From: Archangium gephyra
Lineage (GTDB): Bacteria; Myxococcota; Myxococcia; Myxococcales; Myxococcaceae
Direction: 5' to 3'
Length of the DNA stretch: 64,000 nucleotides
Assembly: GCF_001027285.1 (NCBI RefSeq)
Contig: NZ_CP011509.1
Span: 6,100,501-6,164,500, forward strand
Below are positions 526 through 22,040 of the stretch, piece after piece. Both the position numbers and the translations under genes were made by a program. Each line of letters begins with the position of its first letter. The stretch's first letter is position 1. The notes below the pieces were generated by a model, which was not told where the DNA came from, ran no database searches, and worked only from the letters and a program-made list of their open reading frames with translations.

Positions 526-1470
526 ATGTCTCCTTTTCCCAGCCCCTCGAACAGGGGTTCTCATGCACGTCCTTGGCTTGCGTTGGCCGCCGTGCTCGTT
601 TCCACGGCCTCAGCCGGTCAAGCCCCCCTCCCGGCACCCGCGTTGGAGCTGGAACGGCTGCAGCTCAACCCCGGCGCCACGGACAGTCTCGTGGTCGGGG
701 CGGGTGGACTGCTGCCCCGGTGCGGACTGCGCACCGCGCTCGTCGCGCACTATGAGCAGGATCCGCTCGTCCTGAACCTGGGCGCCCAGCAGTTGGGGCG
801 CATCGTTCACTCGCGCGCCACCGCGCATCTGGTGGCCAGCTATGGAGTGAGTGATTGGCTCGAGCTTGGATTCGAGCTGCCCTACATCGTGCGGCAGAAG
901 GGGGATGGCCCGGAGCGCACGGACGTGCTGCCGCCGGTGTCCAGCGCGGTGGGCTCACCGCGCCTGCAGGGCCGGTTCGGACTGCTGCGCCAGGGCAACG
1001 GCGCCGTGATGGACCTGGCGGTGATGCTGGGGGCCTCGCTGCCCCTGGGTCCTTCCGAGGCCCTGACGTACCAGGGCTCGCGGGGCCTGGCCCTGCACGG
1101 GCGGGTGGGCCTGGGGCGAGCCCTCGGCTTCGTGCACCTCGGCCTGGAGGCCGGCATCAGCGCCCGGGAGCCGGTGGAGCTCAGCCCCACGGCCGTGGGG
1201 GGCTCCATCGTCTTCGGCAGTCTCCTGGAGGGAGGCGTCGCCGTCTCCACGCGGGGTGAGGGCCTGCGCGGCGAGCTGAGCCTGCGGGGAGCGATTCCCC
1301 TGACGCGTGCGCCCGCCGCCACCGAGCTGCTCGCGGGGGCCCGCCTGCCCTTGTTCGGCAAGCGCTTCGAAGTGTTCGCCCTGGCGGGGCCCGGCTTCGG
1401 GCGCCTGCCTGGTACTCCCTCGTTCCGGGTCCTGTCGGGTCTTGCCTGGACGCCGCCTTCGGACCGCTGA
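526..1470 (+). CDS. secreted outer-membrane beta-barrel protein (TraB-barrel-like, no OmpA domain)
   Basis: The 314-residue product has a signal peptide (hydrophobic LALAAVLVSTASA about residues 18-31) followed by alternating amphipathic segments rich in Gly and Leu, with aromatic residues at strand ends (LELGFELPY, GRVGLGRALGFVHLGLEAG), as expected for an outer-membrane barrel. It resembles the barrel half of the OmpA-type protein encoded at 3914-5761 but stops before any calcium-binding repeats or OmpA domain. It is the first gene of an apparent co-directional cluster; the lectin-repeat gene follows after 27 bases. The ATG at 526 gives a complete signal peptide. Inference: a porin-like partner or anchor for the surface lectin. 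No enzyme motif is visible. Confidence 0.7.
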   Translation: MSPFPSPSNRGSHARPWLALAAVLVSTASAGQAPLPAPALELERLQLNPGATDSLVVGAGGLLPRCGLRTALVAHYEQDPLVLNLGAQQLGRIVHSRATAHLVASYGVSDWLELGFELPYIVRQKGDGPERTDVLPPVSSAVGSPRLQGRFGLLRQGNGAVMDLAVMLGASLPLGPSEALTYQGSRGLALHGRVGLGRALGFVHLGLEAGISAREPVELSPTAVGGSIVFGSLLEGGVAVSTRGEGLRGELSLRGAIPLTRAPAATELLAGARLPLFGKRFEVFALAGPGFGRLPGTPSFRVLSGLAWTPPSDR

Positions 1471-1497
1471 AGACCTCTCCAAGGAAAGCTCATCCCC

Positions 1498-3813
1498 ATG
1501 CGTCCTCCGTCTTGTTCGCGTCTGTTCGTCCTGGCCGCCCTCGCCGCCGTGCTGTTGAGCGCGGCTCGCGCCGAGGCCACCAACAGCTGTTATTTCGGTG
1601 GCTCCCTGCTGCCCGACTACACCCTCAATGGCTCGGCCAGCATGAATGGCGAGTCCATCCTCGTCACCCCCAACAGCGGCAACCTGAACTCCTCGGTCTT
1701 CTTCAATCCGCAGTTCTCGACGAGCGGCGATCTGCACATCAAGCTCGAGTTGCAGATCCTCACCGACTCGACCAGGAAAGGGGCGGATGGTGTGGCCTTC
1801 GTCATGCATAGCGATAAGCGGGGCCCCAAGGCCATTGGCGTTCCGGGCTATTGCATGGGCTACGCCTATCACGCGTCCGTGGAGGATGGCATCTTCCCCT
1901 CGGTGGTGGTGGAGCTCGATACCTACAGGAATGCCGAATTCAACGACCCGAGCGACAACCACCTCGCCATCACCCGAGGGGCCAGATCCCGCCACAATGA
2001 TCCTGTCAACAGCGAGCTCCCGCTGCCCAAGGATCTCACCCCCCTGGGCCTCAACCTCAAGAGCGGCAAGAGCATCTATCTCTGGGTGGATTACATCGCC
2101 GCCAAGACGCAGCTGGATGTCTATCTGAGCGAGACGGATTCACGGCCGTCGAGCCCGCTGCTCACCACCAACAAGCTCAACCTCGCCACGGAGCTTGGCC
2201 CCAGATTCTGGATGGGGTTCACCAGCTCGACCGGGTCGGATTGGTCGGCGCACAAGGTAATCAAGTTCTACGCCACCGACACCTATGGCCGGCCCGAGGA
2301 GGCTTGCTGCACGAGAGATAGCGATTGCACCACTTCGCCTTTTGGCCAGGTGTGTGACACCGTGAAGCACACCTGTGGCGAGTGCATGCTCGAGAACACC
2401 TCCCAGTGCGCGGTCTCGTCCAGCAGGTGCTCGATCAGTGGAGAGAACAACCGGTGTGTCCCCTCGTGCGATGGCAACTTCGGGGGCGGTACTCCACAGG
2501 CCTGCGGTACGGCGGCCTACCCGGTGTGTGTGGCCTCGGGACCCATTGCTGGCTCCTGCTCGAGTTGCAACGGAGACAACGGGACGGGGGCCGCGTTCTC
2601 CTGCGGTACCGAGACGCCGTACTGCTCCACCAAGGGGTATTGTGGCTACTGCACCACCAACGCGGACTGCACGGTGGCTGGAGTCGCGCACAAGGGTCCT
2701 TTCTGCAATCGCACGAAAGGCACCTGCGGTACGACCTGCAACGAAGACAGTGATTGCGGCAGCAGTGCGTGGTGCGACACGGCCAGCGCTTGCGTGCCGA
2801 AGAAGCCCAACGGAGAACTGGTGCCTGGTGGCACGTGCTCGAAGTCGCAGGCCTCGCGCACGTGCCTCTCCGGTGAATGCGAGACGGCGGACAACCGCTG
2901 CGGCCTGGTGAATGGGGCGGCGCTGCCCACGGGGGCAGAGGCGTGGCGGGTGTGCCGCTCCGGTGTGGCCGATGCCGACGGGAAGTGCGGCCTGGTGAAT
3001 GAGACGGCGATGCCCACCGGCGCGGATGCGGCGCAGGTGTGCCGCTCCGGTGTGGCCGAGGCCGACGGGAAGTGCGGCCTGGTGAATGGGACGGCGCTGC
3101 CCGCGGGTGCCGGGGCGGGGCGGGTGTGCCGCTCCGGGATGGCCGATGCCGATGGAAAGTGCGGCCTGGTGAATGGGACGGTGTTGCCCGCTGGCACGGA
3201 GGCGAGGTGGGCCTGCCGCGCCACGGTGGCGGATGCGGATGAGAAGTGCGGCCTGGTGAATGGGACGGCGCTGCCCGCTGGCGCGGACGCGGAGCAGGTG
3301 TGCCGCGCCACGGTGGCGGATGCGGATGAGAAGTGCGGCCTGGTGAATGGGACGGTGTTGCCCGCTGGCACGGAGGCGGAGCAGGTGTGCCGCTCCATGC
3401 TGGCGGATGCGGATGAGAAGTGCGGCCTGGTGAATGGGACGGCGTTGCCCGCTGGCGTGGACGCGGAGCAGGTGTGCCGCGCCACGGTGGCGGACGACGA
3501 CGGGAAGTGCGGCTTGGTGAATGGGACGGCGCTGCCCGCTGGCACGGAGGCGGAGCAGGTGTGCCGCTCCATGGTGGCGGATGCCGACGGGAAGTGCGGC
3601 CTCGCTGATGGGTCCACCGTGTCGGCGGGCGCTGAGCCAGCGGACGTGTGCCGCTCGGGCAGGTCCACACGCCAACTCTGTGGCGGACCTGGCTCGGTGG
3701 GCCGGATCGAGGGCTTCGGAATGGGTTGCACCACCATACCGGTGACCTCGTTCAGCTGGCTGCTGGTGGCCAGTCTGGCCACCCTCCGCGGCAGCCGGCG
3801 CAGGAAGCCGTAG
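1498..3813 (+). CDS. L-type lectin / Cys-rich tandem-repeat surface protein with MYXO-CTERM tail (TraA-like architecture)
   Basis: The 771-residue product has a signal peptide (1-25) and then an L-type lectin domain (about 27-265). Residues E139, D141, Y143, N145, D150 and H155 show the same spacing as the Mn/Ca-binding set of concanavalin A (8, 10, 12, 14, 19, 24). A disulphide-rich region (about 266-465) follows. From residue 468 there are eight 29-residue repeats beginning CGLVNG and a degenerate ninth. The tail has Cys744, a hydrophobic segment and a terminal RGSRRRKP, the tripartite layout of MYXO-CTERM surface sorting. TraA, the outer-membrane-exchange receptor, has the same order (variable lectin-like domain, Cys-rich repeats, MYXO-CTERM), but its recognition domain is PA14-like. 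The gene downstream encodes a TraB-like protein. Likely role: carbohydrate- or partner-binding adhesin at the cell surface. Confidence 0.85.
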   Translation: MRPPSCSRLFVLAALAAVLLSAARAEATNSCYFGGSLLPDYTLNGSASMNGESILVTPNSGNLNSSVFFNPQFSTSGDLHIKLELQILTDSTRKGADGVAFVMHSDKRGPKAIGVPGYCMGYAYHASVEDGIFPSVVVELDTYRNAEFNDPSDNHLAITRGARSRHNDPVNSELPLPKDLTPLGLNLKSGKSIYLWVDYIAAKTQLDVYLSETDSRPSSPLLTTNKLNLATELGPRFWMGFTSSTGSDWSAHKVIKFYATDTYGRPEEACCTRDSDCTTSPFGQVCDTVKHTCGECMLENTSQCAVSSSRCSISGENNRCVPSCDGNFGGGTPQACGTAAYPVCVASGPIAGSCSSCNGDNGTGAAFSCGTETPYCSTKGYCGYCTTNADCTVAGVAHKGPFCNRTKGTCGTTCNEDSDCGSSAWCDTASACVPKKPNGELVPGGTCSKSQASRTCLSGECETADNRCGLVNGAALPTGAEAWRVCRSGVADADGKCGLVNETAMPTGADAAQVCRSGVAEADGKCGLVNGTALPAGAGAGRVCRSGMADADGKCGLVNGTVLPAGTEARWACRATVADADEKCGLVNGTALPAGADAEQVCRATVADADEKCGLVNGTVLPAGTEAEQVCRSMLADADEKCGLVNGTALPAGVDAEQVCRATVADDDGKCGLVNGTALPAGTEAEQVCRSMVADADGKCGLADGSTVSAGAEPADVCRSGRSTRQLCGGPGSVGRIEGFGMGCTTIPVTSFSWLLVASLATLRGSRRRKP
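2899..3678 (+). repeat. tandem 87-bp coding repeats (8 full copies plus a degenerate ninth)
   Basis: Each unit starts with TGCGGCCTGGTGAATG or a close variant and encodes 29 residues: CGLVNG, an Ala/Gly-rich stretch, then VCR and ADADGK/ADADEK. Full units start at 2899 and recur every 87 bp to 3594. A degenerate ninth starting at 3595 leads into the C-terminal region. Each unit holds two cysteines. High nucleotide identity between copies points to recent expansion or homogenisation. Confidence 0.95.
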
Positions 3814-3913
3814 CTCCCATCTTCCACCCTGGCGGGGCGGAGACACCGGTCCTCTTCCGTGTCCCGTCCTGTCTGGGTTCACCAGCCGGGTTGTATCTCC
3901 GAGGTAGCAGGCC

Positions 3914-5761
3914 ATGCATCGCATTGTCTTCGCAATCGTTCTCCTGAGCGGATGGGCCATGGCCGCGGAGCTGCCGGCTGGTTCGAGCCAGGGTCTTCCG
4001 TTCTACCGGTATGAGCCAACGCCGGCGGGTGAGTCGTCCATCATGGTGGACGTGCCGCGCTTCGGAACCAATGTCTTCTCCGTCGGGTTCAATCTGAACT
4101 ATTCCCACAGACCGCTGGTGCTGGGCGTGGAGAACGACGCGGGCGAATTCCAGACACTCCGCGTCTTGATCGAGCACCAGCTGGTGGGTCACGTCGACCT
4201 GGCGGCCCGGTTCTGTGATTGCACGACGTTCTCGCTCTCCCTGCCCGTTGCCTGGATGGAGCAGGGAAAGGCGAGGCGCACACGGGAGGCTCGATTCTCG
4301 GTCTTGAATGCCGCGGCTTCTGCGCTGGAGCCGCTCTCCGGCGATTTCTCCCTCCCCGGCGTGGAGGCGGGTGACCCGCGTCTGGGATGGATGCTGCGCT
4401 TGTATGGCTGGCCGAGCGAGAGTCCGTTCTCCGTCAGCATGGGCGGCTACCTGTGGGTGCCGCTCCGCGGGCTTCTCTCACGCACGGACGCGAGCGCCCG
4501 GGGCTTTCGCGCGATGCCCCGGCTGGTGTTCGCGGGCTATCGTCACCACATCCAATGGTCGCTCGCGGGCGCCTTTCTCTTCCGCCCGGAAGCGAGCCAG
4601 TCCTCCCTTCCCGCGCTCGACGGCAGCGTCGAGGGCTCGGAGCTGCAAGCCGGTACGCATGTCAGCTATACCGACAAGGAGCGCGGTTTCTCGGTGGGTC
4701 CGGAGGTGCAGCTCTCGACCGTGCTCATCCCGCGCGATTACGCCTTCAAACCCTTCTACACGAGCCTGGATGTGCTGCTCGGGCTCCACGTCAGGCTCTC
4801 TCCGGTGCTGCAGGCGCAGCTGGCCGCCGGAGCGGGACTGCTGCGGCGCGCTGGCTCGCCGGACTTCCGCTTCCTCTTGCGCGTGTCCTACAACCCGGAG
4901 TGGAAGCGCGCGGACCGGGAAGCCCCTCATGGAGCGCCCGGTGAAGTCCCGCCCGGTGGCGTGGACCGCGATGCCGACGGCGTGCTGGACCTGGAAGATG
5001 CCTGTCCCGATACGCCCGTGGGCCGCGCGCCCGAGCCGTCGCGCCCGGGGTGCCCCGCCAGCGCCCCCGCGCGGACCTTGACTGCTCCTCCGCTCTCCCT
5101 GGCGCTCTGTGGGGAGATGCCGCCCCGGTCCGGGTCTCCGGGGTCGCTGGTCCTGGGCTGCCCCGCGGGCGATCGGGACGAGGACACCGTCTTCGACTCG
5201 GTGGATGAGTGCCCGGATTCGCCACGGGGAGAGCATCCCGATCCAGTGCGTCCGGGCTGTCCCGCCAGCGATCGTGACCAGGACACCGTGCCTGATGCCG
5301 AGGATGCGTGTCCCGAGCAGCCCGGTGCTCCCGCGCTGGAGCGCGACAGGAGTGGTTGCCCCGGGTTGGTGGAAGTGAAGGGAGACAGGCTGCTCATCCG
5401 GAGGCCCATCGTCTTCGCCTCCAATACCGATACGGTCCTGTCCGAGAGCTTCCCCGTGCTGCGGGCCCTGGCCGAGGCCCTCCAGGCAAGCCCGTGGATC
5501 AAGAAGGTCCGCATCGAGGGGCACACCGACAATCAAGGAACGGTGACGGCCAACAGGACGCTGTCCGTGCGGCGCGCCCGGAGCGTGCTGCTCTGGTTGC
5601 AGACGCATGGGGTGGAACCCGCGCGCCTGGAGTCGGCGGGTTACGGCCACGGCCGCCCGGTCACCGGCAATGACACGGATCAGGGCCGTGCCGCCAACCG
5701 GCGCGTCGATATCGTGATCATCGATCCGCCCCCGGCGCCCTCGAGCGGAGAGCGTCCGTGA
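3914..5761 (+). CDS. outer-membrane beta-barrel protein with TSP3 repeats and OmpA domain (TraB-like)
   Basis: The 615-residue product has a signal peptide (MHRIVFAIVLLSGWAMA) and a barrel-like region to about residue 335. Three or four thrombospondin type-3/calcium-binding motifs follow (DRDADGVLDLEDACPDTP, DRDEDTVFDSVDECPDSP, DRDQDTVPDAEDACP) at about 350-470. The C-terminus is an OmpA/MotB peptidoglycan-binding domain (about 490-605) with the signatures RIEGHTDNQG, SVRRARSV and AANRRVDIVI. TraB, partner of TraA, is likewise a signal peptide, barrel and OmpA protein. The gene lies 100 bases after the lectin gene; GAGG at about 3900-3903 precedes the ATG. Inferred role: anchors the lectin complex to the wall or spans the outer membrane. 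Confidence 0.85.
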   Translation: MHRIVFAIVLLSGWAMAAELPAGSSQGLPFYRYEPTPAGESSIMVDVPRFGTNVFSVGFNLNYSHRPLVLGVENDAGEFQTLRVLIEHQLVGHVDLAARFCDCTTFSLSLPVAWMEQGKARRTREARFSVLNAAASALEPLSGDFSLPGVEAGDPRLGWMLRLYGWPSESPFSVSMGGYLWVPLRGLLSRTDASARGFRAMPRLVFAGYRHHIQWSLAGAFLFRPEASQSSLPALDGSVEGSELQAGTHVSYTDKERGFSVGPEVQLSTVLIPRDYAFKPFYTSLDVLLGLHVRLSPVLQAQLAAGAGLLRRAGSPDFRFLLRVSYNPEWKRADREAPHGAPGEVPPGGVDRDADGVLDLEDACPDTPVGRAPEPSRPGCPASAPARTLTAPPLSLALCGEMPPRSGSPGSLVLGCPAGDRDEDTVFDSVDECPDSPRGEHPDPVRPGCPASDRDQDTVPDAEDACPEQPGAPALERDRSGCPGLVEVKGDRLLIRRPIVFASNTDTVLSESFPVLRALAEALQASPWIKKVRIEGHTDNQGTVTANRTLSVRRARSVLLWLQTHGVEPARLESAGYGHGRPVTGNDTDQGRAANRRVDIVIIDPPPAPSSGERP

Positions 5762-5787
5762 TGCCTCATCGACGAAGAGGAGAGCGC

Positions 5788-6414
5788 ATGCAACGTACAG
5801 GGTTCCGGCACTGGAGGATGGGTGGGGTCGCCATGGTTCTGGCGATGGCGCCCCTGTCTCCCGATGACGCGGGAGACGCGGGAGGCTCCCATCACGATGT
5901 CCAGGTCTCCCTGGACGTGGGGCCCCGCGAGGAACCCGATTATCTCACCGTGCCGGTGTATGCGACCGTCACCAACCTGGGGCCGGACACCGCGGAGAAC
6001 GTGAGGGTGACCCTCGAGCTGCCCGCATATCTGTCTGGACGTGTCTCCAATGGAGACGTCTCCTGCGGACCCCCGGGCAGCACCATCGAGTGCGTACTCC
6101 CCGGGCTCGCTGCCGCGGAGACCGCGGTGGTCGAGGTGGAGCTGACCTTGCCCCCGTCTCCGCTCGAGCCGTTTCCCATCCGTGCCAGCGCGTGGGGAGA
6201 TGGGGTCGAGCTCGTGCCCGGCAACAACCAGACAGCGCTCAGGACGAGTGGCGGCCGGCTGCGCCTGAGCAGCGGAGGGTGCTCCATCGCGGCGGGGCAG
6301 GGGGCCTCCCTGGGCTTGCTGGGCTTGCTGCTCCTGCTGCTGCGCTCATGGAGGACTCCTCCACGTCAACGGCGGGCGCGGAACTCGAGGATGGCCTCGA
6401 CGGCGCGGCGGTAG
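5788..6414 (+). CDS. DUF11-type surface protein with MYXO-CTERM-like tail
   Basis: I chose the ATG at 5788 because AGGAGAG lies 4-10 bases upstream; in-frame starts at 5758 and 5761 overlap the preceding stop and would add ten residues. The ~208-residue product has a signal peptide, one Ig-like DUF11 domain (YATVTNLGPDTAENVRVTLE, typical of the family, through about residue 145), then SSGGCS (Cys165), a Leu-rich membrane segment and an Arg-rich tail, i.e. a MYXO-CTERM layout. It is the last gene of the lectin/barrel cluster. Its 3' end runs 49 bases into the 3' end of the convergent glycosyltransferase gene, so the tail after the Arg cluster is longer than usual. Likely a small cell-surface structural partner. 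Confidence 0.72.
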   Translation: MQRTGFRHWRMGGVAMVLAMAPLSPDDAGDAGGSHHDVQVSLDVGPREEPDYLTVPVYATVTNLGPDTAENVRVTLELPAYLSGRVSNGDVSCGPPGSTIECVLPGLAAAETAVVEVELTLPPSPLEPFPIRASAWGDGVELVPGNNQTALRTSGGRLRLSSGGCSIAAGQGASLGLLGLLLLLLRSWRTPPRQRRARNSRMASTARR

Positions 6415-7535
6415 CCCCCGGAAGCGCGGACCTCCTGCTGCATCGTCCCCACCTTCTCCCGGAACGCTGGCTCGCTCGAGACCCGGTCCACCGCCTGACG
6501 GAGCTGCTCCACCGTGACGGTCTCCTTCTCCAGGGCCAGTCCCAAGCCCAGCTCGGCGACCCGCTGGGCATTCAGGGGCTGCTCGGCCATCTGCGGGATC
6601 ACCACCACCGGCACGCCGTAGTGGAACGCCTCCATCAAGCTGTTGGCGCCGCCGTGGGTGACGAAGACCGAGGTGCGCTCCAGGACCTCCAGCTGTGGGA
6701 CCGAGGGGCGCACGAGGAAGTTGTCCGGGATGGGCCCCAGCTGCGCCGCGTTCACCGCGTGCCCCGTGGCGAGCACCACGCGCCAGCGCGTCCCGCCGAA
6801 GGCTGTGAAGCACATCCGGTAGAAGTCCGGCCAGTTGTTGAAGACCGTCCCCAGCGAGATGTAGAGCGCCGGGCCTCCCTCGAGGTGCGAGAAGGGGAAG
6901 TCCCCGGTGTCTCCTCGCGGCTGGATGGAGGGGCCCACGAAGACGAAGCGCTCATCGAAGGTGTCGCCCTGGGGCTGGAACGCACGCGGCACGCAGACCA
7001 GGTTCAGCGGCTCCGCGTGGCTCATCATGCGCGGAAGGTCGAGCGGCGGCAGGCCATGCTCCTGCATCAGCGCCGCCAGCTCCTTGCCCGCCTGCTCGAA
7101 CACTCCCGGGAACAGCGCCGCCCGGTTGCGCATGAAGGCCGCGAAGGGGCCCGACGGGCTGCCGTTGTTGGCCACGGTGGGGCGGAAGGAGATGGCGGGA
7201 ATCCCCAGGAGCTGGGCGGCCATCCGGCCCCAGAGGCACATGGGATCATAGACCGCGTAATCGGGACGCTCGGCGCGCACGGCCTCCAATAGCTGGGGGA
7301 GCACGTGGCGGCTCTCGCCCGCCATGCGGGCCGGGAGGAAGCCCACCCCGCCCGGCTTCTCCAGCGTGCTGTCGTAGCCGTGGAACCGCGCGCCCGACCG
7401 CTCGACCTGGGGCCGGAATGCCTCGGTGAGGAAGTACGAGATGTCCTCGCCTCGATTCACCAGCTCCCGCACCACGGGCAGCGTTGCGTTGACGTGCCCA
7501 TGCAGGGGGACGTTGAAGAAGACTCCTCTGGCCAT
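6366..7535 (-). CDS. MGT-family (GT1) UDP-sugar glycosyltransferase
   Basis: The 389-residue product starts MARGVFFNVPLHGHVNATLP, the N-terminal glycine/histidine signature of macrolide-type glycosyltransferases. Its C-terminal half has the nucleotide-sugar binding region FVTHGGANSLMEAFHYGVPV followed by PQMAEQPLNAQRV, matching the GT1 PSPG-like motif (HGG, E and Q positions). These cytosolic GT-B enzymes transfer a sugar from a UDP-sugar to a small hydrophobic acceptor. Length is normal for the family. The acceptor cannot be predicted; no polyketide or terpene genes adjoin it. It is convergent with the lectin cluster and overlaps its last gene by 49 bases. It stands alone as a transcription unit and is divergent from the beta-helix gene at 7596. 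Confidence 0.88.
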   Translation of the reverse strand: MARGVFFNVPLHGHVNATLPVVRELVNRGEDISYFLTEAFRPQVERSGARFHGYDSTLEKPGGVGFLPARMAGESRHVLPQLLEAVRAERPDYAVYDPMCLWGRMAAQLLGIPAISFRPTVANNGSPSGPFAAFMRNRAALFPGVFEQAGKELAALMQEHGLPPLDLPRMMSHAEPLNLVCVPRAFQPQGDTFDERFVFVGPSIQPRGDTGDFPFSHLEGGPALYISLGTVFNNWPDFYRMCFTAFGGTRWRVVLATGHAVNAAQLGPIPDNFLVRPSVPQLEVLERTSVFVTHGGANSLMEAFHYGVPVVVIPQMAEQPLNAQRVAELGLGLALEKETVTVEQLRQAVDRVSSEPAFREKVGTMQQEVRASGGYRRAVEAILEFRARR

Positions 7536-7595: not shown

Positions 7596-10500
7596 ATGAG
7601 ACTTTCGATTGCGGTGGTTGTGGGGGTCGCAGTCTGTCTGTTCGCACCAGTGTCCTCGGCGCGCGATTGGTTCGTCCGCGCGGGCTCGGACGGCGATGGC
7701 TCGATGGCCCGGCCGTTCAGCGATCCGTGGGAGGCGCTCGACAAGTGCCAGTCGGGTGACGTCATCCACGTCGCGGGTGGCAAATACTTCGGCCGGCTCG
7801 GCAACGGCATGTGGGAAGTGCCCCTCGATGACGTGCAGCTGCTCGGCGGCTACGCCGCGGACTTCAAGAGCCGCGATCCCTGGAAGAACGTCACCCAGTT
7901 GCACTGGGACAAGAACTCCAAGAACCGCCCGAAGCAGGAGCGGCTGGTGTCCACCAAGAAGGGCACGGTCGTCGACGGCTTCATCATCGACCAGCGTGAC
8001 CAGTGCCCCTACGAGACGTCCGAGCAGCTCGGCCGCAAGGAGAACCCCTCCTGTGACAGCGCCCTGCGGTTGGCGCTCCCAGGGGTCGTGCGCAACTGCG
8101 TCATCGTGAACCCGGGCTTCGACGGCATCGTCGCGCCGGCCGGCTCGACCCTCGAGAACAACCTCGTGGTGAACGCGGTGAACTGGGGCATCAACATCAA
8201 CAGCACCACCGACAAGCAGGCCGTCGCGGTGGTGAAGAACAACACCATCGCCTTCACCATGTCGTTCAAGGAGCCCGGCAAGGGCGCCTACAACGGGTCC
8301 GGTCTCGCGCTGAAGGCTCATGCCACCGTCACCGGCAACATCATCGCGTTCTCGGACAGCAACGGCATCTACCTGACCGCCAACCCCGAGAAGAGCACGC
8401 TCACCGACAACGTGTTCTTCATGAACCTCTACTCGAACCTGAAGTTCTTCTCCGACGGCAAGGACATGCCGGTGGATGACAAGGAGATGGAGCTGCTCGA
8501 GGAGGTCGGCTTCAAGAAGGTCTCGAACAACGAGGTGAAGAACCCGCAGCTGCCGGTGGACGCCGGGTGGCTGGACCACGTCTCGAAGCGCACCGCCGCC
8601 ACGCCCGGCAAGCTGACGATGGACGAGTTCAACAAGGCGCGCCAGGTGCTCGGGCTCCCGATGATCGCCAAGGGCGGCACCCCGCCGTCGGGGGTGGCCC
8701 CGGCGATGGACCTCGACAAGGCGCTCAAGCTGCTGGCCCCCAAGGGGGCGGGCCAGGCCGGCGCGCGGGTGAGGCCACTGACCGTCAGCTTCCAGGAGGA
8801 GGCGGCCGCGGCGCCGGAGAAGGCGTACAAGCGGATGGAGGTCAGCGCGTGGCTGAGCAAGCCGGAGAGCGTGGAGGGACAGCCGCTCGAGCTGGTCGTC
8901 GCGCTGAGCTCGGTCGCGAACGTGAGCAGCGTGCCGGCCCCGTTCAAGCCGGACGAGCACGCGGGGGTGTTCCTGCACGAGCCGACGGGCAGCTACGGCA
9001 GGTTCGTGGGCTTCTACCGGAAGGGCTCCACCGTGCAGCGGGTCGCGGATGCCGCGATGGGAGACTGGCAGGGCTCGGGCCCTCCGCCGAAGCTCTTCCT
9101 CGCGAAGGGCACCGCCTACGTGATGAAGGGCTACCCGAAGGCGGGCTTCTTCGTCGACAGCCTCGAGCCCTACGAGGCCGCGGCGAAGGTGGGCAGCCGC
9201 CCGCAGGGCCGGGACTGGTTCGTCCGGGCGGGAGCGAGCGGCGGCGACGGTTCGCGCGAGAAACCCTTCAAGGATCCGTGGCAGGCGCTGGAGAAGGTCG
9301 AGAGCGGTGACTTCGTGCACGTCGCCGAGGGCGAGTACTACGGCAAGCTCAAGACGGGCCGCTGGAAGATCGACGCGCCCTACATCTCGCTCATCGGCGG
9401 GTACGACGCGCAGTTTCGCGAGCGCAACCCGTGGAAGCACCCGACGCGCCTGTTCGCACCCGCCGAGTACAAGGGCCGCCGCGATGGCTACGTCATCGAA
9501 GGCGCCGATGATCACACCGGCGCGGTGGTCGACGGCTTCGTGTTCGACCGTGCGACCGACAACAAGTACAAGCCGAACGGCGATCTCGACTATGACAACT
9601 CGGAGAAGCTCGAGCACCTGTGGCTGTCGAAGCCCGAGTGCGCCGTGCGCAACAATCTGTTCGTGAACGGCGCCGAGGGCGCGGTCCGCATCGGCAGCGG
9701 CAACACGCTGGAGAACAACATCTTCATGAACCACCACACCCGCACGGTGGTGGTGCAGCGCGGCTTCGGCACCGCGCCGATCATCTTCCGCAACAACACC
9801 GTGGCGTTCTCGTGGGACATCCGGTTCGGCCAGGGCAATGGCCGCAACGGACATCTGCTGTCCGTGGAGAACGGCGTCAACGCGATCATCGATGGCAACA
9901 TCTTCGAGTTCGCCGACAACGACGCGATCCGCCTGATGGCGAACCCCGCCGACGTGGAGCTGACGAACAACACGTTCAACCACAACCTCTGGTCCAACGT
10001 GATGCGGCCGCAGGAGAACGTCACGGTCGATGACAAGACCTTCGCCCAGCTCAAGGACTTCAAGTTCAAGAAGCTCGCGGGCAACCAGGTCATCCCGGCC
10101 GGCCTGCCCATCGACCAGAAGTGGTTCGACGCCTACCTGAACCGCACCGCCTACGTGCCAGGCAAGGTGACGATGGATGACTGGAACCAGCTCCGGGAGA
10201 TGCTCGGCCAGCCGGTGCTCGCCACCGGGGGGCAGGGGCCTTCCGGCTTCATGCCGCTGTATCCGTGGGAGAAGGCGCTCAAGCTCTTCCCGATGAACCC
10301 GAAGGTGACCGCCGGCGCACGTGCCAAGGACCTGCCGGTCTCCTTCACGGGCGTCGCGCGGGCTGAGTCGAACTTCGACTACCAGGACGTCACCTGGGGT
10401 GATGCCGCGAAGAACGCCTCGACGTGGGATGCGCTGGACGGAAAGCGCGTGGCGATGCGTGTCGTCATCCGCGGCATCGACAACCAGTACCAGCTCCCGG

Positions 10501-10727
10501 AGCTCTCCAAGGACGAGTACACGCCCTTCACGGTCACCGGCCCCGAGGGAATCGACTCCGGCGGGCTGCCGATGCGGATGTACGTGAAGAAAGGCAGCAA
10601 GGCCGAGCGCGCGGTGCGCCAGGCGAAGGCGTACAGCTCGGGGACGCCGGAGCAGTGGTACGTCATCAAGGGAGTGGCGCGCGGGCAGCGGCAGCTCATC
10701 GCCGAGGCCGTCGAGCGCGCCGACTGA
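7596..10727 (+). CDS. large secreted right-handed beta-helix protein with two homologous halves
   Basis: The 1043-residue product has a clear signal peptide (MRLSIAVVVGVAVCLFAPVSSA). Two long internal repeats each begin RDWFVRAG (about residues 23 and 541), followed by matching DPW-AL, SGD, GG-YFG/EYYG and NPWK/DPWK blocks. The repeats carry many Asn-rich rungs such as LENNIFMNH and VVKNNTIAF that mark a parallel beta-helix fold (DUF1565/pectate-lyase-like). Each half ends with a lower-complexity domain of about 150-200 residues. It is probably periplasmic or extracellular and may bind or cleave polysaccharide; no catalytic set is evident. It appears monocistronic, with the promoter in the 60 bases shared with the divergent glycosyltransferase. 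Confidence 0.82.
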   Translation: MRLSIAVVVGVAVCLFAPVSSARDWFVRAGSDGDGSMARPFSDPWEALDKCQSGDVIHVAGGKYFGRLGNGMWEVPLDDVQLLGGYAADFKSRDPWKNVTQLHWDKNSKNRPKQERLVSTKKGTVVDGFIIDQRDQCPYETSEQLGRKENPSCDSALRLALPGVVRNCVIVNPGFDGIVAPAGSTLENNLVVNAVNWGININSTTDKQAVAVVKNNTIAFTMSFKEPGKGAYNGSGLALKAHATVTGNIIAFSDSNGIYLTANPEKSTLTDNVFFMNLYSNLKFFSDGKDMPVDDKEMELLEEVGFKKVSNNEVKNPQLPVDAGWLDHVSKRTAATPGKLTMDEFNKARQVLGLPMIAKGGTPPSGVAPAMDLDKALKLLAPKGAGQAGARVRPLTVSFQEEAAAAPEKAYKRMEVSAWLSKPESVEGQPLELVVALSSVANVSSVPAPFKPDEHAGVFLHEPTGSYGRFVGFYRKGSTVQRVADAAMGDWQGSGPPPKLFLAKGTAYVMKGYPKAGFFVDSLEPYEAAAKVGSRPQGRDWFVRAGASGGDGSREKPFKDPWQALEKVESGDFVHVAEGEYYGKLKTGRWKIDAPYISLIGGYDAQFRERNPWKHPTRLFAPAEYKGRRDGYVIEGADDHTGAVVDGFVFDRATDNKYKPNGDLDYDNSEKLEHLWLSKPECAVRNNLFVNGAEGAVRIGSGNTLENNIFMNHHTRTVVVQRGFGTAPIIFRNNTVAFSWDIRFGQGNGRNGHLLSVENGVNAIIDGNIFEFADNDAIRLMANPADVELTNNTFNHNLWSNVMRPQENVTVDDKTFAQLKDFKFKKLAGNQVIPAGLPIDQKWFDAYLNRTAYVPGKVTMDDWNQLREMLGQPVLATGGQGPSGFMPLYPWEKALKLFPMNPKVTAGARAKDLPVSFTGVARAESNFDYQDVTWGDAAKNASTWDALDGKRVAMRVVIRGIDNQYQLPELSKDEYTPFTVTGPEGIDSGGLPMRMYVKKGSKAERAVRQAKAYSSGTPEQWYVIKGVARGQRQLIAEAVERAD

Positions 10728-10837
10728 GGCCCGGCTCGGGCTGGCACGCGGCGGACGGGTCGGGCGCTCGCCCCCCCGCCCGCTCGCCGGCCCATGGAGA
10801 CTGACCTTCCGGGGACGTGCGCCTTACCTCAAGGGGC

Positions 10838-11908
10838 ATGATGCCACCGACCCAGCCCGGCCCGCTGGTCCTTCGGGAAAAGCACCCCACTGAACACGGT
10901 GAGGGTCGCGGAAGACTGTCTCCCCAACGCGAGGCCTTGCTCAAGGCGCGCATCAAGGATCTCTCGCTGCGCCTGGCGGACACGCCGCTCGAGCGCCACA
11001 TCGCGCAACTGCACGCGGAGCTGGAAGCCAAGGGGATCTCCTTCAAGCCCCAGTGCTACCTGTCCGACGAGTGGGGGTGTCCCTCGGGCGTCCCCGTCAT
11101 CGGTCTTCCCTTCTATCTGGCCGACCCGGCCCTGCTCTCCATCGAGGCGGACCTGGGCGGCGGCGCGGAGAGCGAGGCGGAGATCCTCATGTACCTCCGC
11201 CACGAGGCGGGCCACGCCTTCAACTACGCGTACCGGCTCTACGAGACGGACGAGTGGCTGCGCGTGTTCGGCGACTACTCGCGGCCCTACCGCGATGACT
11301 ACAAGCCCCAGCCCTTCTCACGGCGCTACGTGCTGCACATCTCCGGCTGGTATGCGCAGAAGCACCCGGACGAGGACTTCGCCGAGACCTTCGCCGTGTG
11401 GCTCACCCCCGGCGGTGACTGGCGCAAGCGCTACCAGGGCTGGGGCGCCCTGAAGAAGCTCCAGTACGTGGAGGACATCGTCCAGCGGCTCGGCCGCGCG
11501 CCACCCGTCGTCCAGCTCGCCGAGCCGGACTTCACCACCGAGGAGATGGAGGGCACCGTCCTCGAGCACTACCGTCAGCGCGAGCTCGACGAGAAGGTGG
11601 ACCTGGAACTGCGCAACGCCTTCGATCAATCCCTGGAGGAGATCTTCGAGGGCCCCGGAGAAGCCCCGGTGCGCGCGGAGACGCTCGTGCAGGCCGAGCG
11701 CCAGCGCCTGCTCTCCCTGGTGAGCCACTACTCGGGCGTGAGCCGGGGCGTGGTGCGCGCGTTGCTCGACCACCTGGCCGAGCGCACCGCCGCGATGAAC
11801 CTCACGCTCCACCCGGATGACAGCCGGGAGGCGGGCATGAGGCTCGCCTCGCTCGTGACCGTGCTGACCATGAATTACCTCTACACCGACCGTTTCTTCG
11901 AGGAATGA
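10838..11908 (+). CDS. putative zinc-binding metallopeptidase (Peptidase_Mx/PF15887-like)
   Basis: The ~356-residue product carries HEAGH (His122-Glu123-His126 from the ATG used here), and downstream DEDFAETFAVWLTP, which supplies the third-ligand region seen in this metallopeptidase family. No signal peptide is present, so it is predicted cytoplasmic. Starts are ambiguous: ATG at 10838 or 10841 (AAGGGG just upstream favours 10841), or GTG at 10817. The ATP-grasp gene begins 4 bases after its stop, with GAGGA inside this gene's last codons, so the two are almost certainly translationally coupled. The pair suggests linked peptide or amino-acid ligation and hydrolysis; the substrate is unknown. 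Confidence 0.8.
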   Translation: MMPPTQPGPLVLREKHPTEHGEGRGRLSPQREALLKARIKDLSLRLADTPLERHIAQLHAELEAKGISFKPQCYLSDEWGCPSGVPVIGLPFYLADPALLSIEADLGGGAESEAEILMYLRHEAGHAFNYAYRLYETDEWLRVFGDYSRPYRDDYKPQPFSRRYVLHISGWYAQKHPDEDFAETFAVWLTPGGDWRKRYQGWGALKKLQYVEDIVQRLGRAPPVVQLAEPDFTTEEMEGTVLEHYRQRELDEKVDLELRNAFDQSLEEIFEGPGEAPVRAETLVQAERQRLLSLVSHYSGVSRGVVRALLDHLAERTAAMNLTLHPDDSREAGMRLASLVTVLTMNYLYTDRFFEE

Positions 11909-11912
11909 GCCC

Positions 11913-12938
11913 ATGGCACTGCCGCCCCTTCGCATCGCGGTCCTTCACTACCAGGCCAAGGATGATCCGCCGGATGCGGTGATGGAGCAGGTGTGCGCCA
12001 CGCTCCAGCAGCTCGGACACACGCCGGTGCCGGTGCGCGTGGACGAGAGCCTCTCGGACATGGTGCGGCAGGTGTCCAGGTCGGGCGCCGACCTCGTCTT
12101 CAACCTCTGCGAGACCTTCGCCGAGGACTACCGGTTCGATGTGAACGTCGCCGCGGTGCTGGAGCTCGCGCGCGTGCCCTTCACGGGCTCGGGGACGGCG
12201 GGCCTGCTGCTCGCCCAGGACAAGATCCTCACCAAGCAGCTGCTGCAGTTCCACGGGGTGCTCACCCCGCGCTTCGCCTCCTTCGACGGCGACTCGTTCC
12301 AGACGAATGGAGACCTGTCCTTTCCGCTCATCGTCAAGCCCGCGCGCTCGGACGCCTCCATGGGGCTGGGCGTGGAGAAGGACATGGAGGGGCTGGCGCG
12401 CCGCGTGCGGATGATTCGCGAGCAGTATGACGACGAGGCGCTCGCGGAGGAGTTCATCGAGGGGCGGGAGTTGTACGTGGGCGTGCTCGGCGATCACTCC
12501 CGGCCCGAGGTGCTTCCCGTGGTGGAGCTCGACTTCGGAAAGAAGTGGAGCCGCAAACGCATGAAGATCGCGGACCGGGAGGTGAAGTTCGGGCCGGATA
12601 CGCCCGGGAGCCCCCAGCTCGTGCTGCCCAGGGACTTGTCGGACGAGCTGCGGGGCCGCATCGAGGGAGCCGCGGTGACGGCCTTCCGCGCGCTCAAGCT
12701 GCGCGACTACGCCCGCATCGACTTCCGCGTGTCCAGCGCCACCAACGAGCCCTACCTCCTCGAGGTGAACCCCAACCCGTACCTCGAGGAGAAGAGCGAG
12801 GTGGCGCTCGCGGCCCGGGACAAGGGCATGTCGTATCCGGCGCTCATCCAGCACATCGTCGAGGTGGCCGCGCGCCGTTACGGGCTCGGGAGAGGGGCGG
12901 CCCAGGCCGCGCCCGCCGAGGAGCCCCTGTCCACGTAG
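11913..12938 (+). CDS. ATP-grasp ligase (D-Ala-D-Ala ligase-like)
   Basis: The 341-residue protein has the ATP-grasp layout. The N-terminal domain (about 1-100) includes LVFNLCETFAEDY and the VPFTGSG motif. The central ATP-binding region has LLAQDKILTKQLL and FPLIVKPARSDASMGL. The C-terminal region has DYARIDFRVS and EVNPNPYLEEKSEVALAARDKG, carrying the Mg-binding acidic and Asn residues of Ddl-type enzymes. Ddl-like enzymes join an amino acid carboxylate to an amine using ATP. The divergence from housekeeping Ddl and the tight coupling to a metallopeptidase make it more likely an accessory carboxylate-amine ligase than the essential Ddl. It is convergent with the next gene, with a 14-base gap. 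Confidence 0.85.
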   Translation: MALPPLRIAVLHYQAKDDPPDAVMEQVCATLQQLGHTPVPVRVDESLSDMVRQVSRSGADLVFNLCETFAEDYRFDVNVAAVLELARVPFTGSGTAGLLLAQDKILTKQLLQFHGVLTPRFASFDGDSFQTNGDLSFPLIVKPARSDASMGLGVEKDMEGLARRVRMIREQYDDEALAEEFIEGRELYVGVLGDHSRPEVLPVVELDFGKKWSRKRMKIADREVKFGPDTPGSPQLVLPRDLSDELRGRIEGAAVTAFRALKLRDYARIDFRVSSATNEPYLLEVNPNPYLEEKSEVALAARDKGMSYPALIQHIVEVAARRYGLGRGAAQAAPAEEPLST

Positions 12939-12952
12939 GGGGCTCGGGTGTT

Positions 12953-13423
12953 TCAGTGGGGAGTCAGCCCGAAGTGGGCCTTGATGCGCTCGGCGGGAGG
13001 GGTGCTGCCGGCCTCCTCGAGCACCTTGAGGCCCCAGCGTGCCGCGTCACTCAGGTTGGGCGTGACGACATAGGGGGTATGGCTGCGCGGCCGCACCTTG
13101 AGGAAGGTGGACATCATCAAGCGCAGGAGCGGTGAGGTGATGACCAGGGCGTGGCCAAGCATCTGGGCATCGAGCAGGGCCCCGTGCTGCTTCAGCCACT
13201 CCGCCTGAAGTTGGCGGACGTCGGAGGAGAGCATGGGCGCGTTGCGCATGTCGAAGAGGGTGACGTGCTTCTCGGGGCGTTGCAGGTAGGTGAGCCGCTG
13301 CGCGAGGTAGTCCTCGAAGCTCGCGAGCGGGACCGCGCCTCGTATCTGGACGGTGAGCAGGGGCCAGAAAGAGTCGTCAAGGGTGATGGAGGGGGCGGGG
13401 GAGTCGTTCAAGTTGGGCGTCAC
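12953..13423 (-). CDS. small cytoplasmic protein, SpoIIAA/STAS-like fold suspected
   Basis: The 156-residue product has no signal peptide or membrane segment. The order of predicted elements (VQIRGAVPLASFEDYLAQR, HVTLFDMRNAPMLSSDVRQL, LGHALVITSPLLRLMMSTF, TPYVVTPNLSDAARWGLKVL) fits the alternating beta-alpha fold of SpoIIAA-like/STAS proteins of myxobacteria, in which a strand-loop with Asp (FDMRNAP) precedes a helix. No phospho-acceptor serine is obvious at the expected place. It is a single gene, divergent from the MORN-like gene at 13599. Assignment to the fold is inference; the frame itself is well supported by codon use. Confidence 0.62.
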   Translation of the reverse strand: MTPNLNDSPAPSITLDDSFWPLLTVQIRGAVPLASFEDYLAQRLTYLQRPEKHVTLFDMRNAPMLSSDVRQLQAEWLKQHGALLDAQMLGHALVITSPLLRLMMSTFLKVRPRSHTPYVVTPNLSDAARWGLKVLEEAGSTPPAERIKAHFGLTPH

Positions 13424-19620: not shown

Positions 19621-20538
19621 CTATCGCTCTATGAGGGCCGGATCTAGTTGGATGAAGGCCTGCCGCATCCCGTCGTGCCGGTAGACCTCCAGCGACAGGC
19701 GCGTCAACTTGCCATCCTCCATGAAGGCGCCACCGTCCACGACAAAGGCCACCACACCGGACCCGCCGGGCATGATCTCACGGCCAGTGGCGCGAACGGC
19801 GACTGCTCGCTCATGGCCTTTGTCCAGGGTCACCAGACGAGCCGACTTCATGCTCCACGGCTGCTCAGGGGCCAGGTTCTTGATCTTGAAGACGACAGCC
19901 GCCTTGACCTTCCCCTGAAGCACCTGGGCATCAATCTCGGCATCCGCGTCCTTGCCAAAAAAGCGCTCCACCACCTTGAACGGTGTCTGTGCCAACGCGC
20001 CTGATACCAGCAGGGCGGCCAGGGCGTGATCCTCCGAAGTCTCTTCCTTGCGGTAGCGCTGGTTCTCCTCGGTCAGGGCGTCGTTCTTCTTGAGCGCTTC
20101 CCTCAGAACTGCGTGCATGGCCGCGTGGCTCTCGCGGTTTTTGAAGACGTCGACCTGCTGGTCCGTCCACGACCACCCTTCGCGGCCCGGAGGTCTCAGC
20201 AGAAAGGGCACCTCTGTCCCATCGACCAGCGTCACGACCACGGGAATTGCTTCATCGTCGTCGAGGTCATGGAGGGGCTCCAGGAGTACCTTGTTGCGGA
20301 CCACCGCCAGCGGCTCGAGCCGGCCCTCCCAACCGAGCATCTTCGTCTTGACCGGGTCGACGGACTGCTCGAACCGGAGCGTCGTGACGACCTGCCCCTT
20401 CACGTAAACGCGGTGGGTGGCATCGTCTGGGTGTTCCGAGAGCAGGATGGGGCGTACAGAGAGTTTGTCGCGCCCGCCGCTGGCCAGGGCGGCTGACGCC
20501 GCGAGGGCAACAAGGAGTACAGACCGGAGAAGTAGCAT
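19621..20538 (-). CDS. DUF2381-family protein (TIGR02268)
   Basis: The 305-residue protein has a signal peptide (LLLRSVLLVALAASAALA) and the layout of the myxobacterial DUF2381/TIGR02268 paralogous family. The N-terminal domain has RVYVKGQVVTTLRFEQSVDP and PVVVTLVDGTEVPFLLRP, a central helical stretch about KKNDALTEENQRYRKEE may form a coiled coil, and the C-terminal beta-rich domain ends LEVYRHDGMRQAFIQLDP. Length is typical. The biochemical role of the family is not established; proximity to kinase and lipoprotein genes in other genomes suggests envelope signalling. First gene of a two-gene unit with the following lipoprotein. Confidence 0.82.
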   Translation of the reverse strand: MLLLRSVLLVALAASAALASGGRDKLSVRPILLSEHPDDATHRVYVKGQVVTTLRFEQSVDPVKTKMLGWEGRLEPLAVVRNKVLLEPLHDLDDDEAIPVVVTLVDGTEVPFLLRPPGREGWSWTDQQVDVFKNRESHAAMHAVLREALKKNDALTEENQRYRKEETSEDHALAALLVSGALAQTPFKVVERFFGKDADAEIDAQVLQGKVKAAVVFKIKNLAPEQPWSMKSARLVTLDKGHERAVAVRATGREIMPGGSGVVAFVVDGGAFMEDGKLTRLSLEVYRHDGMRQAFIQLDPALIER

Positions 20539-20909
20539 CAGCCGGTCAACTTATCAGGGAGGGCGGCATATTCAAGCGGAGACCTGGGACGGCCGCGTCC
20601 CGGAGACGGTGTCAAAGGACTCGAACGCGGGACACGGTCAGAGCGACACTTGGCGTGGACGGGTGCTCCTATCCGTCACTTCCACTTGTTGGTATGGGCA
20701 CGGGGGCCGCGCTGGTGAACTTCATGCGGAACCTGCACGCCAACTCGTCAAGCAGGGGCATTTGTTGGATAGTTCTTTGACACCTTCTTGGAGTCAGAGC
20801 GCTCCATTAGCGACAGACTGGAACTGTCACGAGGCGCAAGCACCTTGGCCTGTTTCGTCATAAGAAAGTTGGCCAAGAAAACCATCTGCCGAGTTTGTGG
20901 TGGATTGGG
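20539..20909. other. intergenic stretch without a confident gene
   Basis: About 370 bases between the DUF2381 gene start and the PIN-domain gene stop. The left part is GC-rich; GC falls toward 20900. One frame near 20697-20780 reads GTGAALVNFMRNLHANSSS before a stop, which could be a gene remnant, but nothing identifiable is seen. It marks the left edge of the lower-GC island. Confidence 0.5.
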
Positions 20910-22040
20910 CTACCTTGCTTGACGATTCAGGGATGTGCGGAGTTCCCGAAGCCTGGCGGCAAATGGTGTTTCTTCGATTTTGATTTGTGTGCTCAACTGC
21001 CATCTTGCGTCACTAGTCACGGTGAATCTCTTTTCGCTAGTGAGTGCGCGCCGTAGTTGAGCGTGTGGATCTCGAGAGCGCGACTTGTATCCGGCACTTT
21101 GCAGTTGCTGCTCGATTTTAATGGATGTGAGCGGTTCATCGGTGAGAGCGAGAATCCTGAGTAGATGCTGTTTCAGTGTGAGCTTTTTTCGGCGCTCTAG
21201 AAGTCTTTCGATTTTCTCGGACAAATCTGTCGATTGAATTCCAGATGTGTGTAAGTCGTCGAAGAAGTTTTTGAATGGCCAATCTGTGTCGGGCTTTAGG
21301 GACTCAGGGGGAGGTTCCTTTAGGTTTGATGCGGCGCCTAGTGTGACCACTGCAAGGCCGCCTATCGTCAATCCCGCTAGCCACTTCATCGGAGTAGGAA
21401 GCTTCGTGAACCCTTCGAACGCGCCTTTTATGGTGGCTGCGGTAAGCAGTGTCCCCATTGAGGCCAAACCATGCAGCCCAGCGTGTTTCGCTGCTTCACG
21501 TGAATATTTGCGGAGAAGGAGCATGATGTCATCGTCATCAAGACCAAGGCGGGGATAATCCGTTGCGTCCCAGTCGTTGTCTCTGCTTATGATGACATCT
21601 AAGCCGAGTTCTTCGAATAGCTGTGCGTGCGGAACGTCTGTTGGGTCGCGAGCAAGGAGTCGCTGGATGTTGGCGGACTTTCTGTTGGTCGGCTCGAAAA
21701 AATAGATTTTTTCAAGAATCGACTGTTTGGCAGACTCAACCCTCTCGCTGGGGGCTTTGCATGGGAATGTTGGAAGGTTCCGTATGACCTCTTCTCTTAC
21801 TAGCGTGGTTGCAAATGCTCTTAGAACGCCTGCATCAATCGCCTCTTCAAGGTTGGTTAGTGCTGTGGGGTTCTTGAGTTGAGATCGGCACGAAATGGTT
21901 GAGAGCACCACATTAGCGTCGACAAGTGCAAAAATCGGGCTGATGACTTGCGGCGGTGGCTTGAGGCCCGGGATTTCTGGTCCGCCCGTCAAGTACCGAA
22001 GATCGTTTGAACGGAACTCAAGGAACTTCTTTTTTTGCAT
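20910..22040 (-). CDS. PIN-like nuclease domain + membrane segment + winged-helix domain protein
   Basis: The 376-residue product has a PIN-like domain at about 35-160: FALVDANVVLS (Asp41), VREEVIRN (Glu82/83), DPTDVPHAQLFEELGL (Asp131/134) and DVIISRDNDWD (Asp153/155), the acidic set expected of this RNase fold. A hydrophobic region (~190-245, with MKWLAGLTIGGLAVVTLGA) follows, then a charged linker and a C-terminal helix-turn-helix-like domain (~288-350, LTLKQHLLRILALTDEPLT, KIEQQLQSAGYKS). GC content is much lower than in neighbours and AT-ending codons are common, so recent transfer is likely. No antitoxin gene adjoins it, so it is not a standard VapC pair. A defence or stress RNase tethered to the membrane is a hypothesis. 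Confidence 0.72.
   Translation of the reverse strand: MQKKKFLEFRSNDLRYLTGGPEIPGLKPPPQVISPIFALVDANVVLSTISCRSQLKNPTALTNLEEAIDAGVLRAFATTLVREEVIRNLPTFPCKAPSERVESAKQSILEKIYFFEPTNRKSANIQRLLARDPTDVPHAQLFEELGLDVIISRDNDWDATDYPRLGLDDDDIMLLLRKYSREAAKHAGLHGLASMGTLLTAATIKGAFEGFTKLPTPMKWLAGLTIGGLAVVTLGAASNLKEPPPESLKPDTDWPFKNFFDDLHTSGIQSTDLSEKIERLLERRKKLTLKQHLLRILALTDEPLTSIKIEQQLQSAGYKSRSRDPHAQLRRALTSEKRFTVTSDARWQLSTQIKIEETPFAARLRELRTSLNRQAR

Follow-up and report, generated by a model that had tools for sequence, protein, structure and literature searches.

Results

We analysed a 64,000-nucleotide window of Archangium gephyra DNA (contig NZ_CP011509.1, positions 6,100,501 to 6,164,500 of the forward strand; coordinates below count from its first letter) and found near its start a cluster of four genes, A to D, that probably makes a wall-tethered, glycan-reading surface adhesin on the plan of the myxobacterial pair TraA/TraB. 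Gene B joins a predicted L-type lectin head to a Cys-rich stalk and a MYXO-CTERM-like tail, and gene C, next on the same strand, encodes a predicted TraB-type barrel with TSP3 repeats and an OmpA domain. Barrels of this kind are numerous in the genus, and their coupling to MYXO-CTERM-type proteins is far above background. An earlier note, made from the sequence alone, had listed the domains of A to D; all four genes lie where it placed them, and its inventory was borne out, with qualifications concerning the second lectin model (PF18483) and the MYXO-CTERM model (TIGR03901). The features are as follows.

526-6414, plus strand: whole cluster, genes A to D (gene coordinates as in the earlier note)
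526..1470, plus strand: gene A, TraB-type outer-membrane barrel without an OmpA domain, from the barrel part of the TraB model and leave-out barrel profiles (start at 526, or at 583 by our own gene caller)
1498..3813, plus strand: gene B, signal peptide, L-type lectin head, Cys-rich stalk and MYXO-CTERM-like tail; 771 residues
1579..2301, plus strand: L-type (legume) lectin domain of B, from PF00139, PF18483 and conserved residues
2899..3602, plus strand: stalk of B, 87-bp tandem repeat (29-residue Cys repeat), 8.1 copies
3727..3810, plus strand: MYXO-CTERM-like tail of B (Cys744, hydrophobic stretch, RRRK), from our own pattern scan
3914..5761, plus strand: gene C, TraB-type 12-stranded barrel, TSP3 repeats and OmpA domain; 615 residues
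5414..5701, plus strand: OmpA-like domain of C, from PF00691 and an alignment of 17 sequences
5758..6414, plus strand: gene D, DUF11 domain and MYXO-CTERM-like tail, from PF01345 and our own pattern; 218 residues

The gap between A and B is 27 bp and that between B and C is 100 bp, and C and D share 4 nt (GTGA), at the stop of the one and the start of the other, a spacing that fits one putative operon. A promoter scan found no sigma-70-like site, and terminator-like sites numbered 1 against 2.7 expected.

The lectin protein

Residues 40-258 of B match PF00139 (Lectin_legB) with an E-value (E) of 4.9e-22 and 79.1 bits (cut-off 26.3), and PF18483 is matched at E 6.7e-20 and 72.3 bits, just below its cut-off of 78.3. 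The nearest solved protein to the head, in both sequence and fold, is the legume lectin domain of Methanocaldococcus jannaschii (7elv; Foldseek template modelling (TM) score 0.84 over the target), and the AlphaFold model of B shows a legume-lectin head, a periodic stalk and a disordered tail, with a predicted local distance difference test (pLDDT) value of 83.8. When B was aligned with 19 relatives, E139, D141 and D97 were invariant, and N145, D150 and H155 were present in 19 of the 20 sequences; we take these six to be the metal and sugar residues of legume lectins. By domain score, fold and conserved residues, the head of B is assigned to the L-type or legume lectins, and it is predicted that it probably binds glycans.

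A Cys-rich region follows the head, and then the 87-bp repeat, with 86% matches between copies. The motif CG[LY]..[GE]T occurs seven times in B, and in its lectin relatives P0002 (Archangium sp.) and P0003 eight and six times; in P0003 its spacing also differs, so the stalk varies. The tail of B (GCTTIP...SRRRKP) fits the tripartite pattern of Cys motif, hydrophobic segment and Arg cluster in our own scan. So does the tail of D, which scores 14 bits against TIGR03901, below the cut-off of 20; the DUF11 domain of D (PF01345) has an E-value of 2.8e-7.

Relatives of B form a small group, several of them named Myxococcales or Archangium. A search of 5.8 billion proteins, which took those 0.55 to 1.75 times the length of B (up to about 1350 residues), gave 26 matches at E ≤ 1e-5, B itself included, the closest other being from Archangium sp. 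at 66%. The MYXO-CTERM-like tail pattern was called in 13 of the 26, again counting B, and two of the others are annotated as partial.

Genes A and C as TraB-type barrels

Against the NCBIfam TraB model (NF033763, cut-off 700), the barrel part of A gives E 4.5e-12 and 44.7 bits, and C gives 170.4 bits, its best stretch being the TSP3/OmpA part; C also matches OmpA (PF00691) at E 2.7e-17 and TSP_3 at E 1.4e-5. Because our first barrel profile contained C and TraB, separate group profiles were built, and the TraB-type barrel superfamily is defined here by barrels that are found with profiles excluding the query's own clade. The profile of barrels from fused proteins, built without TraB, A or C, finds TraB at 1.6e-35, A at 3.1e-37, C at 2.0e-10 and the barrel of a second lectin locus, L044, at 1.0e-23; searched with reversed sequences, this profile gave no matches. 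A is found at 7.8e-78 by another profile that was built without it. In profile-profile comparisons, the C-type group was linked to TraB with a probability of 92% and the other group pairs reached 98-99.9%, against reversed controls of at most 3.6%, except for the DN group, which matched its own reversal at 85%. These leave-out matches place A and C in one barrel family with TraB. The parallel with TraA/TraB drawn in the earlier note was therefore right, and for the barrel half it amounts to homology.

The structural model of C has 12 barrel strands, then TSP3 and OmpA. Its top three structure matches are periplasmic portions of OmpA proteins, followed by the barrels FapF and the COG4313 channel, which C matches weakly in fold (TM 0.53-0.65 over the target). 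An alignment of 17 sequences, C included, shows R554 without variation and D539 conserved to at least 90%; we take these two to be the peptidoglycan-binding pair of OmpA domains. We ruled out that C is a generic OmpA protein, given that a barrel profile without C finds it; in a small control, none of four OmpA genes without a barrel in the same loci had a MYXO-CTERM neighbour. A defence role was likewise rejected, the only matches being of MotB/ZorB type and to the OmpA part of C.

The closest relatives of C (47-54% identical in the barrel) have downstream partners with Big_13/DUF4215 or Big_13/Big_6 domains. A MYXO-CTERM partner lies downstream in the three closest, and C itself has the lectin upstream and the DUF11 protein downstream; in one relative, L099, the tail of the partner was seen by eye, our own pattern having missed it. 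The barrels closest to A are 42-47% identical to it and have Ig-like partners where these were scanned (L025, L026), and 17 of the 32 barrels of its clade have a downstream MYXO-CTERM partner.

Several loci around C-type barrels are of separate interest. In L100, L101 and L102, from three other genera, a C-type barrel with a long middle part stands beside similar-looking genes, including proteins with 71-75 cysteines, and our own pattern called no MYXO-CTERM partner there. Downstream of the C-type barrel in L098, a single open frame (9019-13110) carries two MYXO-CTERM-like motifs, at residues 610 and 1336 of 1363.

Barrel repertoire and coupling to MYXO-CTERM proteins

With the barrel profile, this genome yielded 15 copies and the five congeners 11-13 apiece, making 72 in the six genomes (150 of the 161-187 first-look candidates were scored per genome). 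Their E-values run from 8.5e-101 to 1.3e-41, with no match listed between 1.3e-41 and the limit of 1e-8. Thirteen further chosen genomes from 13 genera, two of them of other families, hold 1-12 barrels each at E ≤ 1e-20, 76 in total.

MYXO-CTERM ends were called by our own pattern (a Cys, an uncharged hydrophobic stretch and an Arg/Lys cluster) rather than by TIGR03901, with the background rate as control, and genes were called by a simple script that recovered 70 of the 72 barrel matches of the genus. Of the 15 barrels of this genome, 12 are coupled to a MYXO-CTERM-type protein, five by fusion and seven directly beside it on the same strand; the three uncoupled barrels are in L028, L035 and L038. 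The five congeners have 36 of 55 barrels coupled, which brings the genus to 48 of the 70 called. For the other genomes, 42 of the 76 matches entered the coupling count, 31 lay outside it and three were omitted (L104, fused; L112, with no partner in view; L108, not annotated). The script called 38 of the 42, from four further genera and a genome that belongs to another family, and 24 of these 38 are coupled. The neighbour positions give the same picture: on the same strand, a MYXO-CTERM protein occupies 9 of 21 positions beside barrels, against 0 of 184 other genes, in this genome (Fisher p 2e-10), 34 of 90 against 5 of 705 in the six genus genomes (Fisher p 4e-30) and 16 of 37 against 2 of 308 in the other genomes (p 1.3e-15), p values that overstate the effect, since the genomes are related and the ends were called by our own pattern. 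Nine of the 12 couplings in this genome are also detected by TIGR03901 at E ≤ 1, five of them above its cut-off; those of A, C and L023 are not.

The ectodomains of the partners are varied. All but TraA of the 18 scanned (17/18) carry Big_13, Big_6, Big_9, DUF11, DUF4215, HYR, TSP3 or cadherin-like domains, which are kinds common in adhesins, and on sequence grounds the heads of these barrel-coupled modules are interchangeable. In two congener loci (L166, L167), a barrel is flanked on both sides by MYXO-CTERM-like proteins, of which, in L166, one has HYR and the other TSP3 repeats.

In 29 cases the MYXO-CTERM protein and the barrel are fused in frame, five of them in this genome (L023, L024, L031, L032, L033) and 24 in others. 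The order is ectodomain, MYXO-CTERM motif, Arg cluster, second hydrophobic segment, signal-peptidase-like end and barrel in 19 of 19 genus fusions and 10 of 10 others. The signal-peptidase-like end is mostly AxAQ, with SGQ or VGQ in four, and the barrel begins 51-69 residues after the Cys; as a control for the hydrophobicity test, 98 of 1360 random 35-residue stretches pass. We infer that the Arg cluster has two uses, closing the sorting signal on its cytoplasmic side and opening a second signal peptide, and that one chain would in this way become two. Some fusions are large, that of L181 having at least 4518 residues and reaching the edge of the stretch examined. In a tree, TraB groups with barrels that are mainly fused (support 90/95, subject to a long-branch warning), and a second tree agrees (96/90). 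No OmpA domain was detected in the fused barrel proteins at L032:5781-10115 and L136:4359-8462, and the C-terminal end of the former looks FecR-like.

Distribution of the lectin and its pairing with a C-type barrel

A search for the B-type lectin domain detected it in 1 of 96 family genomes and in 2 of 195 from the phylum (3 of 195 by the Pfam model), which rather suggests an accessory adhesin. Of 36 lectin loci found, the four from Myxococcales were examined, and two of these, L045 and L046 from a single metagenome-assembled genome (MAG), have contig ends that cut inside the lectin gene. In L044, from a Myxococcales MAG (JAEUJZ010000049.1), a lectin/MYXO-CTERM gene 38% identical to B precedes, on the same strand, a barrel/TSP3/OmpA gene whose product is 39% identical to C over 636 columns and whose barrel falls in the C clade (support 97/95). 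A lectin with a C-type barrel is thus present in two of three informative loci, the window included. The earlier note had held that the pairing would be chance if the barrel gene grouped with general OmpA proteins and never co-occurred with lectin-repeat genes; the pairing recurs in this independent genome.

We had at first read the pairing as A with B and C with D only, from the downstream MYXO-CTERM partners of two C relatives (L029, L098), and dropped this on finding the lectin upstream of the C-type barrel in L044. That arrangement favours B and C as the pair, and A and D may be further partners. The barrel proteins at L044:3930-5975 and L032:14457-16271 partly match the NCBIfam model for MtsC, named as a cell-cell cohesion MYXO-CTERM protein. 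The portions of the open-licence literature that were covered held nothing apparently relevant on MtsC, on thrombospondin cell-cell cohesion or on L-type/legume lectins in myxobacteria.

Canonical TraA and TraB in the same genome

The genome also holds, at 11.93 Mb, a canonical TraA (1070.8 bits, cut-off 750; 398.9 on the N-terminal domain model TIGR04566) and TraB (964.4 bits, cut-off 700), so the earlier note's question of whether traAB exists elsewhere is answered in the affirmative. B matches neither of the TraA models, NF033759 (cut-off 750) and TIGR04566. It resembles TraA weakly, mainly in Cys-rich stretches, and shows no convincing similarity to the TraA variable domain. B and C as TraA and TraB proper were accordingly rejected, with the NCBIfam cut-offs unreached and the canonical pair elsewhere. 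The model searches proposed in the earlier note thus upheld the lectin, by PF00139 and with PF18483 below its cut-off, and did not uphold TraA or TraB membership.

Surrounding genes

An EryCIII/UDPGT-type glycosyltransferase gene (6366-7535, minus strand) adjoins the lectin cluster, convergent with D and overlapping its 3' end. Beyond it, a gene on the plus strand (7596-10727) encodes a 1043-residue protein with two beta-helix stretches, the halves of which look alike. The GC content of 20001-22000 is clearly lower, at 0.561 against about 0.68.

Discussion

We consider a wall-tethered adhesin that reads glycans the probable product of the cluster. For its export, processing, docking, ligand and attachment we infer the following course. 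B would be exported, cut by a myxosortase and lipid-anchored on the outside; it would dock on the barrel of C, perhaps also on that of A, and C would fix the complex to the cell wall. The cell could thereby hold on, under load, to a glycan on the surface of prey, of kin or of the matrix. The lectin module may also include A and D; for A this is suggested by its place 27 bp before B and by its clade, about half of whose barrels have a downstream partner, and for D by the downstream partners in the three closest relatives of C. TraAB would then be one specialised member of a repertoire of barrel modules.

Several observations weigh against this account. On the barrels, a profile of TraB only misses both C and the L044 barrel, and TraB is reached by the C-type profile at only 4.7e-4, which makes the direct link between C and TraB thinner; in a plain BLAST comparison, C matches the TraB of this genome solely in the TSP3/OmpA part. 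The model of C is of modest confidence (pLDDT 70, predicted TM score 0.48). No MYXO-CTERM partner was called for 22 of the 70 genus barrels and 14 of the 38 elsewhere. In the tree, 17 of the 23 partnerless rows fall in three clades and the label changes 8 times, against 19.8 after shuffling; coupling is thus a property of most, not all, branches. On the lectin, the tail of B has no TIGR03901 match at E ≤ 0.1 (model cut-off 20 bits), the domain is absent from all five congeneric genomes searched, and the lectin of L043 has no adjoining barrel, being followed instead by a DUF11/MYXO-CTERM gene whose product has no real similarity to D. None of the 26 matches to B (23 with the lectin domain) is fused to a barrel, in a search limited to about 1350 residues, near or over which a lectin/barrel fusion would lie.

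A serious rival, on account of the FapF match, is that the barrels are dedicated outer-membrane translocators of their MYXO-CTERM partners (two-partner display) and not tethers. Among solved barrels, C comes closest to the COG4313 channel and to FapF, whose entry is titled a polypeptide transporter, and the coupling and fusion of barrels with a passenger would suit such a role. Set against this are the weakness of that fold match, below three matches to OmpA periplasmic portions, and the OmpA domain on most barrel copies, which argues for a tether; in the available text of PMC11980579, the route proposed for MYXO-CTERM proteins is the type II secretion system. On balance we regard translocation as unlikely.

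A second rival is that B and C form a true exchange system, in which glycan recognition by the lectin pair drives outer-membrane fusion and exchange in parallel with TraAB. To our knowledge, membrane exchange is known only for TraAB. The shared plan and homologous barrel would agree with such a role, and a pair could suffice, as TraAB are reported, in the part of PMC12045341 available, to be the only proteins needed. The canonical pair is already in the genome, however, C lies far from TraB itself on the TraB model, coupled barrels are numerous and the lectin is rare in the family. These points, together with the lack of convincing similarity between B and the TraA variable domain, leave exchange, and kin recognition in particular, without support; membrane exchange by B and C is possible but unsupported, and we judge it improbable. 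Least probable of all is a set of unrelated surface genes brought together by chance or by general envelope clustering, for which the barrel-less lectin of L043 and the abundance of matches in this genome (53 for TIGR03901 among the 150 of 394 candidates scored, and 44 of TraB/OmpA type) would speak, and against which stand the coupling far over background, within this genome, across the genus and in other genera, the lectin beside a C-type barrel again in L044 and the 29 in-frame fusions.

Beyond the adhesin itself, we put forward a wider reading more tentatively. Myxobacteria may possess a large set of receptor-plus-tether modules, TraAB among them, in which interchangeable adhesin heads are combined with a conserved barrel/OmpA anchor; each genome of this genus has 11-15 of the barrels. 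Many modules would be polyproteins split twice: myxosortase would act at the internal MYXO-CTERM motif, and signal peptidase at a second signal peptide, also internal, that uses the same arginine cluster. In the window, the head of the module would be the glycan-reading lectin, and cells could select partners by their surface sugars, grip them and perhaps exchange membrane with them. As far as the open-licence literature searched shows, the lectin version and a multi-copy TraAB-like repertoire are new. Studies of outer-membrane exchange and kin recognition in myxobacteria treat both as the work of a single pair, TraAB. If that pair belongs to a repertoire of adhesins and anchors, the pairing of anchor and head, changes of specificity and the step that separates exchange from adhesion become comparable across about a dozen variants per genome. 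The lectin version offers a head whose class of ligand, glycans, could be read by array, and the fusions offer a clean test of processing at internal MYXO-CTERM motifs.

Comparison with known systems

TraA of Myxococcus xanthus and B have in common a signal peptide, a recognition head, a Cys-rich stalk and a MYXO-CTERM end in one protein, and in both systems the next gene on the same strand encodes a barrel of one family with TSP3 and OmpA. They differ in the head, an L-type lectin in B and a PA14-like variable domain in TraA, and the lectin cluster adds a second barrel (A) and a DUF11 protein (D). The TraA paralog MXAN_4924 is described as having a MYXO-CTERM end and Cys-rich repeats, as B does, with a PA14 lectin-like head, and no barrel neighbour is mentioned in the accessible part of that source (PMC3325183).

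Among proteins with known folds, the legume/L-type lectins, of which 7elv is nearest, resemble the head of B in fold and conserved residues, but in B this head sits on a stalk with a sorting-type tail. For C, the outer-membrane channels FapF and COG4313 are the best barrel matches to its model, a weak match from structure comparison.

The closest described relative of the fusions is MXAN_5598, an adhesin - MYXO-CTERM - barrel - OmpA fusion that has already been likened to TraA plus TraB, with its N-terminal part proposed to be processed and anchored (Guo, Haft and Wall 2025, PMC11980579; compared here by its description in the text available). Like B and C, it links a barrel/OmpA part to a MYXO-CTERM surface protein, but it does so as a single fused protein with a large adhesin, whereas B and C are separate genes with a lectin. 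Internal MYXO-CTERM motifs are called rare in the available text of that study, which does not mention a second, internal signal-peptide-like segment, yet we find five barrel fusions with such a motif in this one genome.

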